Assembly: GCA_017528825.1 (NCBI GenBank)
Contig: JAFXOI010000001.1
Span: 1-64,000, forward strand
Length of the DNA stretch: 64,000 nucleotides
Direction of reading: 5' to 3'
Source of the DNA: Elusimicrobiaceae bacterium
GTDB lineage: Bacteria > Elusimicrobiota > Elusimicrobia > Elusimicrobiales > Elusimicrobiaceae
The notes under the pieces are model-generated. The model made no database searches and was not told the DNA's origin. It saw only the letters and a program-made list of their open reading frames with translations. The position numbers and the translations under genes are program-made. Positions 29,916-56,411 of this stretch are shown piece after piece. Every line of letters starts with the position of its first letter. Position 1 is the first letter of the stretch.

Positions 29916-30082
29916 TTCCCATTAAAAAACCCCCGAGATGAGTATCGGGGGTTACTGGTATCAGGCCGGGTAGCCTGTACCAGCCGGGGGATTGTAAGTT
30001 CAATCAAAGGTTGCCCGTCCTTGAGAATTATCACAGCCTCTGCAACAAAGCTGATTTCCTCTATGAGTAAATTACCCAACAA
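29885..30082 (-). pseudogene. Possible Phd/YefM-like antitoxin remnant
   Basis: The minus-strand frame following RNA copy C reads about 60 residues that include LIEEISFVAEAVIILKDGQP and then LIELTIP. This resembles the C-terminal half of Phd/YefM-type antitoxins, where a glutamate-rich helix leads to a strand, a D/N-G-K/Q-P turn and an aliphatic strand. It starts only with TTG, lacks the DNA-binding N-terminus and has no toxin neighbour. It would be a fragment at best. The resemblance is judged by eye and may be coincidental. Confidence 0.25.
29928..29953 (-). terminator. Terminator reading on the minus strand
   Basis: The stem AACCCCCGA / TCGGGGGTT is followed on the minus strand by TTTTTTAAT. 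There is no T-run on the plus side, so it appears built to end minus-strand transcripts coming through the structured RNA at 30081-30244. A second nested hairpin (CTGGTA...TACCAG) lies just beside it at about 29955-29983. Confidence 0.7.
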
Positions 30083-30244
30083 AAAGGGCAGCCCTCGTCA
30101 CTAGGAGTTAGCACACGCCCAGTAACGACGCTGCCCTAACCGTGTAATTCTTTACACAGTTAAATGGCTTCGCCGTTTTTGGGGTGCTAACTGTTGTTTT
30201 CATTTCAAACAACCGTTCCGTCTCTTCAACGGACCCAAAAACAG
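30081..30244 (-). ncRNA. Structured double-pseudoknot-type RNA, copy C (downstream of the cysteine-rich pilin)
   Basis: Read on the minus strand. The enclosing helix is CUGUUUUUGG (30244-30235) with CCAAAAACGG (30182-30173). Inside it are the hairpin CCGUU-GAAGA-GACGG, a second hairpin GUUGUUU/AAACAAC, and the strand AGUUAGCAC (30192-30184). That strand pairs perfectly with GUGCUAACU (30114-30106) in the loop of the last stem. A ten-pair hairpin AACUGUGUAA/UUACACGGUU comes next. The last stem is GGGCAGC/GCUGCCC, extended by UCGUUACU/AGUGACGA, and ends in UUUUU. The hairpin called H4 in the other copies is reduced to GGC-GAA-GCC here. A CATAAT -10-like box lies at 30291-30286. No known RNA family was recognised. 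Confidence 0.75.
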
Positions 30245-30321
30245 TACATTTAACTTTTAATAAATACGTTTCCTACTCTAAATGTATTATGCAAAAAAAG
30301 ATATTCTAAAGTAAAGTTTTT

Positions 30322-33021: not shown

Positions 33022-33133
33022 TATAACACCAATTACAATTTGAACTGTTTCTGGAACTGTGTGAAGAATACAGAGTCATTGGAAACTATTTGTAAATCGT
33101 TGGAAGGACTAGGATGGATATAGCCGGATAGTG
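33022..33133 (+). ncRNA. Truncated copy D of the structured RNA family
   Basis: A TTTGCTATAAC promoter-like box (TATAAC at 33022-33027) is followed by CUGUUUCUGG (33045-33054) and the hairpin CUGUGU-GAAGA-AUACAG (33057-33073). These match the 5' parts of copies A-C, with a compensatory change (C-G to U-A) in the GAAGA hairpin. The matching 3' strand CCAGAAACAG and the later hairpins are absent. The similarity fades before the end of the convergent dus gene at 33144, so this copy is probably decayed or truncated. Confidence 0.5.
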
Positions 33134-33143
33134 AAATGTAAAC

Positions 33144-34109
33144 CTAGACCAAATTCCCAAACAATTTTTTGATATCTGTTAGGTTTTCCATTCGTACAAA
33201 TTTGCCGCGCACTTCAGCGGCATTTGGGAAATCGCGTAGCCAATAGCCCGCCGTTTTTTTACTGCGACCAATCCCGATACGTTCCCCGTAGCGGGCCACA
33301 TTTTCTTCAATGAGCGCCAAATAAATTTCCGCCCGGCGTTTGTAATCAAGCGGCATGACTTTTTCCCCCGCCAATTCCTTGGCAATATCACTAAAAATAT
33401 AGGGGTTTCCCACGGCCGCACGGCCAATTAATAACCCCGCACACCCCGCACCGAAAAACTGTTTTGCTTTTTCTACTCCGTCGATACCGCCATTACCAAA
33501 TACCGGAATTTTTACCGCCGCGCATACCGCCGCTAACGCTTCCAAATTCGGCTCTCCGCTGTGCATATCTTCCGCCGCGCGCGCATGCATCATCACCGCG
33601 GCCGCGCCTTCTTGTTCGGCTACGCGCGCCAGCTCCGGTCCTAAAATCGTACCGCGCTTTAACGCAATACGAGTTTTAAGTGTAACGGGAATTTTAACGG
33701 CCTTCACCGCCGCGGCCACTAGGCGCCCCAAGTGAACGGGGTCCTTCATAAGCACACAGCCCGCTCCGGCTTTATTGATTTTTTTAACCGGACAACCGGC
33801 ATTAATGTCAATAATATCGGCCCCGCGCGCTTCTGCGGCACAAGCCGCTTCGGCAATGGTGCGCTCATCCGAACCAAAAATCTGCATAGAAACCGGTTTT
33901 TCGCGCGGGTCTATTTGCAACATACGAGTACTGCGCGCATTGCCATAATGCACGGCATGAGCAGATACCATCTCCGCGCATACAACCCCCGCCCCACCGC
34001 GCAAACACAAGGCACGAAACGGTCCATCCGTAACCCCTGCCATAGGGGCCAGCCACAGATTATTCGGCGCTAAAAAACGGCCTATTTTTACCGGACGGAT
34101 TTCATTCAT
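33144..34109 (-). CDS. dus: tRNA-dihydrouridine synthase (Dus/NifR3 family)
   Basis: The ATG at 34109 overlaps the stop of the upstream gene (ATGA) and has GGAG nine bases before it, so I prefer it to the frame start at 34124. The 321-residue protein has LAPMAGVTDGPFRALC (FMN site), MQIFGSDERTIAEAA, IDINAGCPVKKINKAGAGC with the catalytic cysteine, and GNGGIDGVEKA and GLLIGRAAVGNPYIF at the phosphate-binding end. It reduces uridines in tRNA. Which position it serves (DusB-like) is not certain. It is last in a run of four minus-strand genes. Confidence 0.93.
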   Translation of the reverse strand: MNEIRPVKIGRFLAPNNLWLAPMAGVTDGPFRALCLRGGAGVVCAEMVSAHAVHYGNARSTRMLQIDPREKPVSMQIFGSDERTIAEAACAAEARGADIIDINAGCPVKKINKAGAGCVLMKDPVHLGRLVAAAVKAVKIPVTLKTRIALKRGTILGPELARVAEQEGAAAVMMHARAAEDMHSGEPNLEALAAVCAAVKIPVFGNGGIDGVEKAKQFFGAGCAGLLIGRAAVGNPYIFSDIAKELAGEKVMPLDYKRRAEIYLALIEENVARYGERIGIGRSKKTAGYWLRDFPNAAEVRGKFVRMENLTDIKKLFGNLV

Positions 34110-39797: not shown

Positions 39798-40655
39798 TTA
39801 GGCCTTTTCTACCGTCACCGCAGGATCTAATTTTTCCTGCAAAGTCTTTTCAATAAAACCTTTCAAGGTTACATCTGCGGCTAAACAGCCCTGGCACATA
39901 CCGATCAAACGCACTTTAATCACTAGGCCGGATACGTCCACCAGTTCCACAGAACCACCGTCTTTATTGAGTTGTGGGCGGATGTCTTCTTCCAACACTT
40001 TTTCAATGCGTTTGATTTTTTCCACGATGGTTAAATCAGCAAATTTTTTGTCTGCGTTATCGGCACTGGGTGCGGGCACTGCGCACGAATTGACTTTATC
40101 TAAAATTTTTTGAATATCGCCTTTGCACTTGCCGCAAGCACCGCCGGCTTTGGTATAAAAGGTGACTTCTTCAACCGTCGTCAAATGATTGGTGCGAATG
40201 GCCTTAATAATGGCTTCTTCCGACACATTAAAACAATGGCAAACGATTTTTTCGGCTTCCTGCTCAAATACCACCGGCTTGCCGCCTTGACGATAACTTT
40301 GCACCGCCGCTTCTAGGGCTTCCATTCCCATCACCGAGCAATGCATTTTTTCAGCCGGCAGAGACCCTAACTCATCAGCAATGTCTTGATTGGTTATTTT
40401 GGATGCTTGCTCCAAGGTTTTACCTTTAATCATTTCCGTTAATACAGAAGAAGAGGCAATCGCGCTGGCACAACCAAACGTTTCAAATTTGGCATCTTCA
40501 ATGACTTCTGTTTCTTTATTAATTTTAAGTGTTAATTTTAAAGCGTCCCCACACACCAAACTGCCTACCTGACCGGTAGCGTCGGCATTTTCAATGGCCC
40601 CCACGTTGCGCGGATGGCGGAAATGATCCATTACTTTCTCTGTATAATCCCACAT
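39798..40655 (-). CDS. nifU: NifU Fe-S scaffold protein (three domains)
   Basis: This 285-residue protein has the full NifU layout. The N-terminal IscU-like scaffold has Cys35, Cys62 and Cys106 and ends near residue 123. A middle [2Fe-2S] BFD-like domain has Cys139-x-Cys141 and Cys174-xx-Cys177. The C-terminal Nfu domain has Cys244-xx-Cys247 (GMCQGC). It builds Fe-S clusters on sulfur supplied by NifS. Full-length NifU occurs in nitrogen fixers but also serves as general machinery in several anaerobes; no nif structural genes are in this window. The upstream -10 and AAAGGAG support the start. Confidence 0.95.
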   Translation of the reverse strand: MWDYTEKVMDHFRHPRNVGAIENADATGQVGSLVCGDALKLTLKINKETEVIEDAKFETFGCASAIASSSVLTEMIKGKTLEQASKITNQDIADELGSLPAEKMHCSVMGMEALEAAVQSYRQGGKPVVFEQEAEKIVCHCFNVSEEAIIKAIRTNHLTTVEEVTFYTKAGGACGKCKGDIQKILDKVNSCAVPAPSADNADKKFADLTIVEKIKRIEKVLEEDIRPQLNKDGGSVELVDVSGLVIKVRLIGMCQGCLAADVTLKGFIEKTLQEKLDPAVTVEKA

Positions 40656-40725
40656 AAAAGGCTCCTTTTGTATTCTTCTATATTATAGCATTTCTGAAAA
40701 TTCACTATCCGCACCAAAAATTTAC

Positions 40726-40731
40726 TATAAT
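40726..40731 (+). promoter_or_regulatory. Promoter -10 (TATAAT) for structured RNA copy A and pilin
   Basis: TATAAT lies 65 bases before the first helix of RNA copy A. A second -10-like TACAAT at 40785-40790 sits only six bases before the helix, so the 5' end could be at either place. Confidence 0.45.
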
Positions 40732-40795
40732 GAAAAAAATTATACAGGAGAAATTGAAGTACACGCGCTACAACGCGTAAAAATACAATTTTGAA

Positions 40796-40992
40796 CTGTT
40801 TTTGGAACCGTATGAAGAATACGGCATACTGAAAAGTACAGAGCAACGCCAAAAACAGCCAATTTAGGCACAAAATAAACGGACTAATTACCCGGGTGTT
40901 TTGTGCCGAATGTTTGCCGTTCATTAGAACGGCAAACTACGGCTGTTTTCTACTGGCTTGGTTGCTCTGGCCCGGGAAAACGGCCGTTTTTT
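40796..40992 (+). ncRNA. Structured double-pseudoknot RNA, copy A (upstream of a pilin gene)
   Basis: H1 is CUGUUUUUGG (40796-40805) with CCAAAAACAG (40849-40858), ten pairs. H2 is CCGUAU-GAAGA-AUACGG and H3 is UACU-GAAA-AGUA. Pseudoknot PK1 is CAGAGCAAC (40839-40847) with GUUGCUCUG (40961-40969), nine perfect pairs. H4 is GGCACAAAA (40867-40875) with UUUUGUGCC (40899-40907). Its loop holds CCCGGG, which can pair with CCCGGG at 40971-40976 as PK2. H5 is GUUUGCCGUUC-AUUA-GAACGGCAAAC. H6 is GGCUGUUUUC (40941-40950) with GAAAACGGCC (40976-40985), followed by GUUUUUU. H6 plus the U-run is terminator-like and lies 38 bases before the pilin ATG. Confidence 0.8.
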
Positions 40993-41029
40993 ATGTCGTT
41001 TTCAGGGCCGACCATAAAAAGGAGTAGTT

Positions 41030-41599
41030 ATGAAAAAAGGATTCACCTTAATTGAACTGTTAATAGTTGTGTTAATTATAGGCGTACTGAGCGCCATTGC
41101 CCTGCCGCAATATGAAAAAGCCGTGGAAAAGAGCCGGGCCGCAGAACCCATGACTTTACTTAGTGCTCTAGGTAAAGCCCAAGAAGTATATTATATGGCT
41201 AACGGAACCTATGCAGATACTTTTGATTTATTAGATGTGCAAATACCCAATAATTATCAATCTTCAGACAAGTGTTCTTTATTTAATGATAGTACGGATT
41301 GCGTGGCAAACCAAGACTGGGCTATTGGCTTTTTAGAAGATAAAACTTGGGGATGGACTTTCTTTTTTGCAGTACGTTTGCAGGGAAAGTATGCTGTAAA
41401 AGAAAATAGTGAAAATCAAGCTGTACTACTATATTTATCAAAACGCCCATCTAACACTAGTCAAGCTTTGCCACAACATGAACATACCGTTATGTGTTCA
41501 TCAAATGGAAATTATTGTAAAACTGTACTCGGCGGAAAAGCATTTAGTGGGTGGAGAAATTCAAACAGTGGGGGCTCGCATACAAATCACACCTTATAG
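41030..41599 (+). CDS. Type IV pilin-like protein (downstream of RNA copy A)
   Basis: The 189-residue protein starts MKKGFTLIELLIVVLIIG, a very short basic leader before the prepilin cleavage site. ALPQYEKAVEKSRAAEPMTL then continues the long N-terminal helix. The globular part carries cysteine pairs (KCSLFNDSTDC and VMCSSNGNYCKTVLGG) and a Gly/Ser/His-rich end. GGAG precedes the start. It is preceded only by the structured RNA, so its expression may depend on readthrough of the terminator-like H6. A role as pilus or pseudopilus subunit is inferred. Confidence 0.88.
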   Translation: MKKGFTLIELLIVVLIIGVLSAIALPQYEKAVEKSRAAEPMTLLSALGKAQEVYYMANGTYADTFDLLDVQIPNNYQSSDKCSLFNDSTDCVANQDWAIGFLEDKTWGWTFFFAVRLQGKYAVKENSENQAVLLYLSKRPSNTSQALPQHEHTVMCSSNGNYCKTVLGGKAFSGWRNSNSGGSHTNHTL

Positions 41600-41624
41600 T
41601 TTCTGCATCCATTCTTCCCTTTTT

Positions 41625-41641
41625 GCTAAAATGATAGGGTA
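41625..41641 (+). promoter_or_regulatory. Extended -10 eight bases before the nadK start
   Basis: TGCTAAAAT (TAAAAT at 41627-41632) is followed by GATAGGGT and the ATG at 41641. No normal ribosome site is seen. Confidence 0.5.
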
Positions 41642-56178: not shown

Positions 56179-56201
56179 AAAAGGGTAGTACACAATTTAT
56201 T

Positions 56202-56411
56202 CTGTTTTTGGAACCGTTGAAGAGACGGTGCGCTTTTGGGATACCAAAGGCAATAGCGAAGTCCAAAAACAGCTCGTTATCAGGCACTACATACCGGAGC
56301 CGATCCCTTTGGTGTGTGGTGCCGAGCGTTTGCCGCATCTTTAGGTGCGGCAGACCACGGCTGTTATATTTGGGGTCAACTTCGCTAGGCTCTGATATAG
56401 CAGCCGTTTTT
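56202..56411 (+). ncRNA. Structured double-pseudoknot RNA, copy B (upstream of a pilin gene)
   Basis: H1 is CUGUUUUUGG with CCAAAAACAG (ten pairs). H2 is CCGUU-GAAGA-GACGG and H3 is CUUUUGG-GAUA-CCAAAGG. PK1 is AGCGAAGU (56255-56262) with ACUUCGCU (56379-56386), eight perfect pairs. H4 is GGCACUACAUACC (56283-56295) with GGUGUGUGGUGCC (56311-56323), 13 pairs including wobbles; its loop GGAGCC can pair with GGCUCU at 56388-56393 as PK2. H5 is GUUUGCCGCAUC-UUUA-GGUGCGGCAGAC. H6 is GGCUGUUAUAU (56359-56369) with AUAUAGCAGCC (56395-56405), followed by GUUUUU. The pilin ATG lies 33 bases after the U-run. Confidence 0.82.

Follow-up and report, generated by a model that had tools for sequence, protein, structure and literature searches.

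In trp-type attenuators, the pairing of strands 1:2 and a terminator 3:4 stand against an antiterminator 2:3, and T-box leaders, which occur in many copies per genome ahead of genes of one theme, likewise choose between terminator and antiterminator. Here we describe a leader RNA from an Elusimicrobiaceae bacterium (assembly GCA_017528825.1), found in positions 1 to 64,000 of contig JAFXOI010000001.1, the whole of which is referred to as the window. The copy under study, copy A, lies before a pilin gene and is probably the 5' leader of the pilin mRNA, acting in cis as a four-strand attenuator with the strand order A, B, A', B'. The four-strand logic is that of trp-type attenuators. The leader differs from them in having no evident conserved leader peptide, in a 2:3 helix that is extended by a helix of about 10 bp of free sequence able to persist as a pseudoknot, in its four enclosed hairpins and in an extra strand, D, past the terminator. 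With T-box leaders it has in common the copy number, the terminator/antiterminator choice and the themed genes, but its targets are surface and defence genes, no Rfam T-box model matched any of the copies tested, and no shared T-box sequence was reported.

The S-adenosylmethionine (SAM)-II riboswitch of Sinorhizobium meliloti metA is reported to combine a Rho-independent terminator with sequestration of the Shine-Dalgarno (SD) sequence in one leader, and its SAM-dependent effects are described as incoherent (PMC9373788). The present leader resembles it in this combination, but differs in fold and phylogeny, and both effects would act in the same direction. Structured RNAs have also been reported from the termite gut, namely the candidates Termite-flg and Termite-leu (PMC2864571; RF01729, RF01730); these two have Rfam entries, and no leader copy tested matched either of them. 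Rfam 15 at the gathering threshold returned two tRNAs only over the window and no family over the leader, and with permissive E-values no family neared its threshold at the leader position in copy A or in 27 loci with copies. We found no earlier description of the leader in Elusimicrobiota in the open-access literature. Attenuation is a known kind of regulation, while this leader family lies outside Rfam and the variant is new. Very little is known about gene regulation in Elusimicrobiota, and in members of the phylum from the gut or associated with termites a single leader RNA seems to control dozens of genes of the pilin, cell-surface and restriction-modification kinds.

Architecture and covariation of the leader

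BLAST with the copy A region gave 40 matches in its own 1.53-Mb genome, and a covariance model, R1, was built from 37 full own-genome copies. The helices (P1 to P5 and PK1) and strands of copy A, together with the adjoining gene, are listed below.

40796-40992, +, copy A, the whole leader, an RNA of about 200 nt before the prepilin gene
40796..40805, +, strand A, the 5' strand of P1 (CTGTTTTTGG) and strand 1 of the proposed attenuator, invariant or nearly so across the 37 own-genome copies
40796-40805 with 40849-40858, +, helix P1, with P2, P3 and the 5' strand of PK1 inside it
40808..40824, +, hairpin P2 (CCGTAT-GAAGA-ATACGG) with a GNRNA-type loop, double changes at 4 of 4 counted pairs
40827..40838, +, hairpin P3, variable in sequence and length
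40839..40847, +, PK1 5' strand (CAGAGCAAC), immediately 5' of strand B, pairing with GTTGCTCTG
40849..40860, +, strand B (CCAAAAACAGCC), strand 2, the P1 3' strand and putative antiterminator 5' strand, pairing with A (P1) or A' (antiterminator)
40867..40907, +, hairpin P4, with covariation and the palindrome TAATTA (40885-40890) in its apical loop
40912..40937, +, hairpin P5, with covariation
40940..40957, +, strand A' (CGGCTGTTTTCTACTGG...), strand 3, the terminator 5' strand and putative antiterminator 3' strand, pairing with B or B'
40961..40969, +, PK1 3' strand (GTTGCTCTG), inside the terminator loop and immediately 3' of A', pairing with CAGAGCAAC
40970..40986, +, strand B', strand 4, the terminator 3' strand, from the alignment-derived structure and covariation
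40987..40992, +, U tract of the intrinsic-terminator-like hairpin, six T, the T run being kept in 37 of 37 copies
40997..41009, +, segment D (CGTTTTCAGGGCC), of class II in this copy and able to pair with B' (GGCCCGGGAAAACG); duplex -24.3 kcal/mol, equalled by 1% of shuffles
41020..41024, +, Shine-Dalgarno sequence AGGAG of the pilin gene, read from the sequence, without a significant masking helix in copy A
41030..41599, +, prepilin-type gene (MKKGFTLIELLIVV...), 189 aa, Pfam N_methyl 30.7 bits against a cut-off of 21.2

The terminator hairpin of copy A extends over 40940-40986, with the core stem GGCTGTTTTC (40941-40950) / GAAAACGGCC (40976-40985). The preliminary description of this DNA had pointed to a terminator-like last stem before a pilin ATG, and the stem, the six T and the ATG at 41030 are indeed all present, with a gap of 37 nt. 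All 37 own-genome copies retain the U-tailed end GCC[G/T]TTTT and, without any change, ACGG.TGT of strand A', and copy A folds far more stably than its shuffles (z = -9.0; 0/200 as good).

RNAalifold on the alignment gave a structure of 54 pairs, in which 95.0% of the cells are paired and double changes occur at 31 pairs; none of 500 shuffles reached any of the five measures, and sliding the partners along the alignment lowers the pairing to 39-52%. PK1 (40839-40847 with 40961-40969) has 9 bp in copy A and 9-12 bp in 36 of the 37 own-genome copies, with 37 different sequences, and the remaining copy pairs at 9 of 10 positions with one mismatch (by eye). When a PK1 strand is set against the partner of another copy, at least 9 bp form in only 16 of 1332 combinations. 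The helix is also found in nearly all copies of both families with R1 matches, f1 (the window's own) and f21. PK1, proposed earlier with its 3' strand in the terminator loop, is thus borne out by a cis pairing that is kept across copies of differing sequence. A second pseudoknot suggested at the same time (PK2, 40971-40976) found no such backing, as its pairing with the P4 hairpin is no better within copies than between them (mean 5.24 vs 5.14).

Alternative pairings of strand B

Strand A (CUGUUUUUGG) is similar to A' (GGCUGUU..UUUGG), as B (CCAAAAACAGYCG) is to B' (..AACAGCCG), and B is therefore able to pair with either A or A'. By the mean energies, B:A' is predicted to be as strong as P1 (-14.8 and -14.1 kcal/mol). 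Across the alignment, the eight pairs of B:A' are intact in 293 of 296 cells, and three B columns outside P1 (88, 90 and 91) still match A'. As the PK1 strands lie directly 5' of B and directly 3' of A', PK1 is a continuous nested extension of B:A', and in the modelled folds it is a pseudoknot only in the state with P1 and the terminator. B:A' with PK1 reaches a mean of -30.5 kcal/mol, the terminator -21.7 kcal/mol. Without the terminator 3' strand, the minimum-energy fold contains the antiterminator in 37 of 37 copies; for the full leader it contains P1 and the terminator in 36 of 37, the exception being copy A.

Divergent copies retain these alternatives. In f21, the first C-G pair of P1 is lost, and B keeps the AG(Y)CG needed by A' in most copies (CAU instead in 2 of 24). 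In genus g11, including the genome that appears to be Elusimicrobium minutum, B is UAAUCG, A' is CGAUUA or CGGUUA and A is altered to match, so that all three pairings are kept, and swapped partners pair worse. A divergent copy in the window (30081-30253) likewise keeps the same alternative pairings with other letters in A, B and A'. No other evidence for the putative switch is as strong as this joint change of A, B and A', though few sequences lie behind it.

At the sequence level, the leader hence has the mutually exclusive antiterminator of an attenuator, and its GC-rich, U-tailed hairpin ahead of a gene is that of attenuators with an intrinsic terminator. The preliminary description had also proposed a cis-acting attenuator, in which forming or breaking the pseudoknots could decide between termination and readthrough. 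The attenuator is supported by the conserved U-tailed hairpin before a same-strand gene, by the built-in antiterminator, which that description had overlooked, and by the lack of a recognisable promoter between hairpin and gene; a consensus scan of 40640-41060 on both strands, which covered the sigma-70 type only, found no promoter of that type, and in particular no separate one at 40992-41030. PK1 does seem to bear on the decision, but it would do so by extending the antiterminator B:A', not by opening the terminator loop.

Segment D, the proposed switch and other explanations

Segment D, located past the U tract and ahead of the start codon, shows complementarity to A in 42 of 112 copies, to B' in 29 and to either in 69 (at most 5% of shuffles as good), whereas the control strands A' or B reach this in 8 of 112. 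In the modelled folds, it is precisely A and B' that become free once B:A' forms. Copies with D complementary to A are called class I and those with D complementary to B' class II, the latter including copy A with its strong B':D pairing. In class I, the UUUUCC of D also pairs with GGAGAA of the Shine-Dalgarno region, in stems that reach 12 pairs at most and often run across the start codon. This masking hairpin is significant (p <= 0.05) in 16 of 20 own-genome class I copies, and its arms match better within a copy than after permutation of the partners (0/5000), where GGAG was taken as the SD core with the class labels and the result is post hoc; both the D and the SD analyses were designed after inspection of the sequences and revised twice. 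A:D covers the UCC of the masking stem and would therefore free the ribosome site.

These sequences, with their helices and covariation, their alternative pairings, D and the masking hairpin, suggest that one strand exchange controls termination and often translation. For termination in the cell, the default state, the order of strand exchange and the signal, we infer the following. In the OFF state, A:B (P1) and A':B' (the terminator with its U tract) would form, bridged by PK1 as a pseudoknot. In the ON state, B:A' and PK1 (about 10 bp) would build one long antiterminator helix enclosing P4 and P5 and leave A and B' free, PK1 probably serving as the toehold by which A' displaces A from B during RNA synthesis. 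In the readthrough mRNA, D would pair with the freed A (class I) or the freed B' (class II) and hold the ON fold; in class I, A:D would also open the SD-masking hairpin, and translation would be switched jointly with transcription. A factor that holds P1 would favour OFF, perhaps a protein or a tertiary contact at the GNRA-type P2 loop, perhaps dimers formed via the palindromic P4 loop. In such a design, the strands that have several partners keep their sequence, the toehold helix with its single partner is free to vary, and one released strand could open the ribosome site.

Several points speak against this interpretation. The full-length ON and OFF folds of copy A are nearly tied (-84.0 and -83.3, less than 1 kcal/mol apart), and since the fold energies omit PK1 in the pseudoknotted OFF state, they describe a design and not an equilibrium. 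Few class II copies show a significant SD mask; for D, 43 of the 112 copies fall short of significance and the second family gives a weaker result (8 of 20), with start codons and D assigned by script. Moreover, D lies downstream of the U tract and so cannot influence the termination event itself. For some of the copies, a coupling of the exchange to translation is probable, and as copy A is of class II without a clear masking hairpin, only the termination half is proposed for it.

One alternative to this proposal is an attenuator acting on termination only, with D and the SD hairpin as by-products of common ancestry or composition. The absence of a significant SD mask in copy A and in most class II copies agrees with it, but the complementarity of D to A and B' is strand-specific, the arms of the SD hairpin co-vary between copies, and the B-like D motif recurs in some copies of the second family, and we regard this restricted version as possible, if rather doubtful.

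It is unlikely that the attenuator is the expression platform of a new class of small-molecule riboswitch, for instance one for a cyclic dinucleotide. The large leader would suit a riboswitch, as would a P2 loop that fits GNRA or GNRNA in 27 of 37 own-genome, 29 of 59 same-family and 20 of 28 second-family copies, and a multi-gene set of pili, glycosyltransferases, outer-membrane proteins and restriction-modification genes. On the other hand, no Rfam riboswitch matches, no ligand-linked gene family appears among the targets, and the leader has few conserved unpaired positions, with no strongly conserved, pocket-like set of unpaired bases seen. The P4 loop carries 6-nt palindromes (UAAUUA, UUAUAA, UCAUGA, UUCGAA, UUGCAA) in 25 of 37 own copies, compared with 4.5 expected from loop shuffles, which fits, without proving, kissing RNA dimers; three own-genome copies have a short P4 without a palindrome. 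We only tentatively consider the leaders a phylum-specific class of sensor RNA, in which a single four-strand exchange, started from a sequence-free toehold, would switch termination and ribosome access for a surface-and-defence gene set, the signal being read by P1-P2-P3 or by P4-loop dimers.

A stand-alone small RNA, in which each copy would be a terminated, trans-acting RNA of about 200 nt and the downstream gene would have its own promoter, was the alternative offered in the preliminary description. The U-tailed end of all copies, the compact stable fold, several copies without a close gene and P4 palindromes that could form dimers are all in line with such an RNA. However, a same-strand gene follows 128 of the 132 copies examined, with the terminator-like hairpin 25-120 nt ahead of it in almost all copies and the ATG typically 31-46 nt past the U tract in the prepilin cases; the gap of copy A lacks a promoter of the one type scanned; the complementarity of D is specific to those leader strands that the ON state would free; and an antiterminator would be useless in a free RNA. 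A free small RNA may thus arise as a by-product of termination, but is very unlikely to be the main role.

Distribution and downstream genes

In the own genome, R1 detected 45 places with E < 1e-20 (2 of them cut by contig ends) and 3 weaker ones, many of the remaining low-scoring rows being the reverse strand of the same places. A downstream frame could be read for 47 own-genome copies, and for 38 of these it encodes a prepilin-like protein (motif match); in one further case, L027, the prepilin motif stands behind a long N-terminal extension. The prepilin frames of L015, L023, L027 and L029 all have a long, repeat-flavoured extension (SFCSASQPLNKAEALNKDTFRATRRVGFTLIE, RHCGRGPTIQ...GMTT) ahead of the motif, as if the leader-peptide part contained a repeat. 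Besides copy A, the window contains the following copies, of which the degenerate one follows a small membrane-protein-like frame.

56191..56411, +, second full copy, before a prepilin gene, R1 186.7 bits
30081..30253, -, divergent copy with no clear gene after it, R1 37.9 bits; A, B, A', B' and PK1 all changed in sequence
33031..33258, +, degenerate copy with only the P1 5' strand and P2 recognisable, nhmmer 14.8 bits (33031-33076), R1 26.9 bits (33034-33258)

Under strict filters, R1 matches were found in 94 of 341 Elusimicrobiota genomes, with 1 to about 46 copies per genome, and more sensitive R1 runs added weak matches in genus g11. Genome G094 of this genus appears to be Elusimicrobium minutum Pei191, a cultured member of the phylum with two weak copies, and f21 seems to be Endomicrobia-like; the termite gut is a known habitat of Endomicrobia. 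Among the pattern matches listed outside the phylum (Flaviramulus, Treponema, Clostridia, Paenibacillus, Bacteroidetes, Nitrospira, one bacterium and one viral contig), none had a covariance-model match, and within this scope the RNA was seen in Elusimicrobiota alone. In relatives, the leaders are followed by genes for glycosyltransferases, outer-membrane beta-barrels, lipoprotein-like proteins, polysaccharide enzymes, DNA methylases and other restriction-modification proteins, and the leader could be used as a regulon marker in uncultured genomes. One second-family genome has two tandem copies ahead of one gene (L090/L100).

Copy A and its prepilin gene (40655-41641) lie between nifU and nadK. 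The order nifU-nadK-recN is conserved in relatives (L274-L288), mostly without leader or prepilin at the junction: 11 of the same-genus relatives whose nifU-nadK junction could be read upstream have neither, while two relatives carry a prepilin there, one of them with a partial leader. Leader and gene seem to be gained or lost as a pair, and their movement as a unit is compatible with an attenuator. That the RNA is part of a spreading mobile repeat and looks regulatory by accident, as the copy numbers and the absence from this junction in most relatives might suggest, is highly improbable given the constant orientation just ahead of a gene, the compensatory evolution of every helix and the absence of transposases or terminal repeats alongside, for which no systematic search was made.

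Upstream of P1, many long-form leaders (e.g. L070, L110 and L117) show, in this order, TATAAT, an AGGAG without a shared start codon, a hairpin AUAAGCC..GGCUUAU and ACAAUUU. As to a trp-type leader peptide with regulatory codons in strand 1, the upstream regions examined by eye share no start codon; individual copies do have short frames, copy A among them (TTG..TAA ahead of P1). We considered the conserved ACAATTT as a -10 box, but its first T is not conserved and many copies have TATAAT or TATACT farther upstream, so that ACAATTT more likely belongs to the transcript. The upstream hairpin was rejected as a general conserved feature, as it occurs in some copies only (own-genome mean z -0.76). 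Likewise, a trans-acting RNA with the common B-like sequence TCCAAAAACAG was sought, and the five sites outside model-known copies, three of them in long open frames, include no convincing copy.

Two individual copies have further peculiarities. In L073:250-467, the PK1 strands mismatch each other, and each fits the strand of another copy; since it is near a contig start, it is probably an assembly chimera between copies. In L094, the first terminator is followed by another hairpin that has its own T run (GTCCATAAACAG...CTGTTTATGGAC TTTTTTT).
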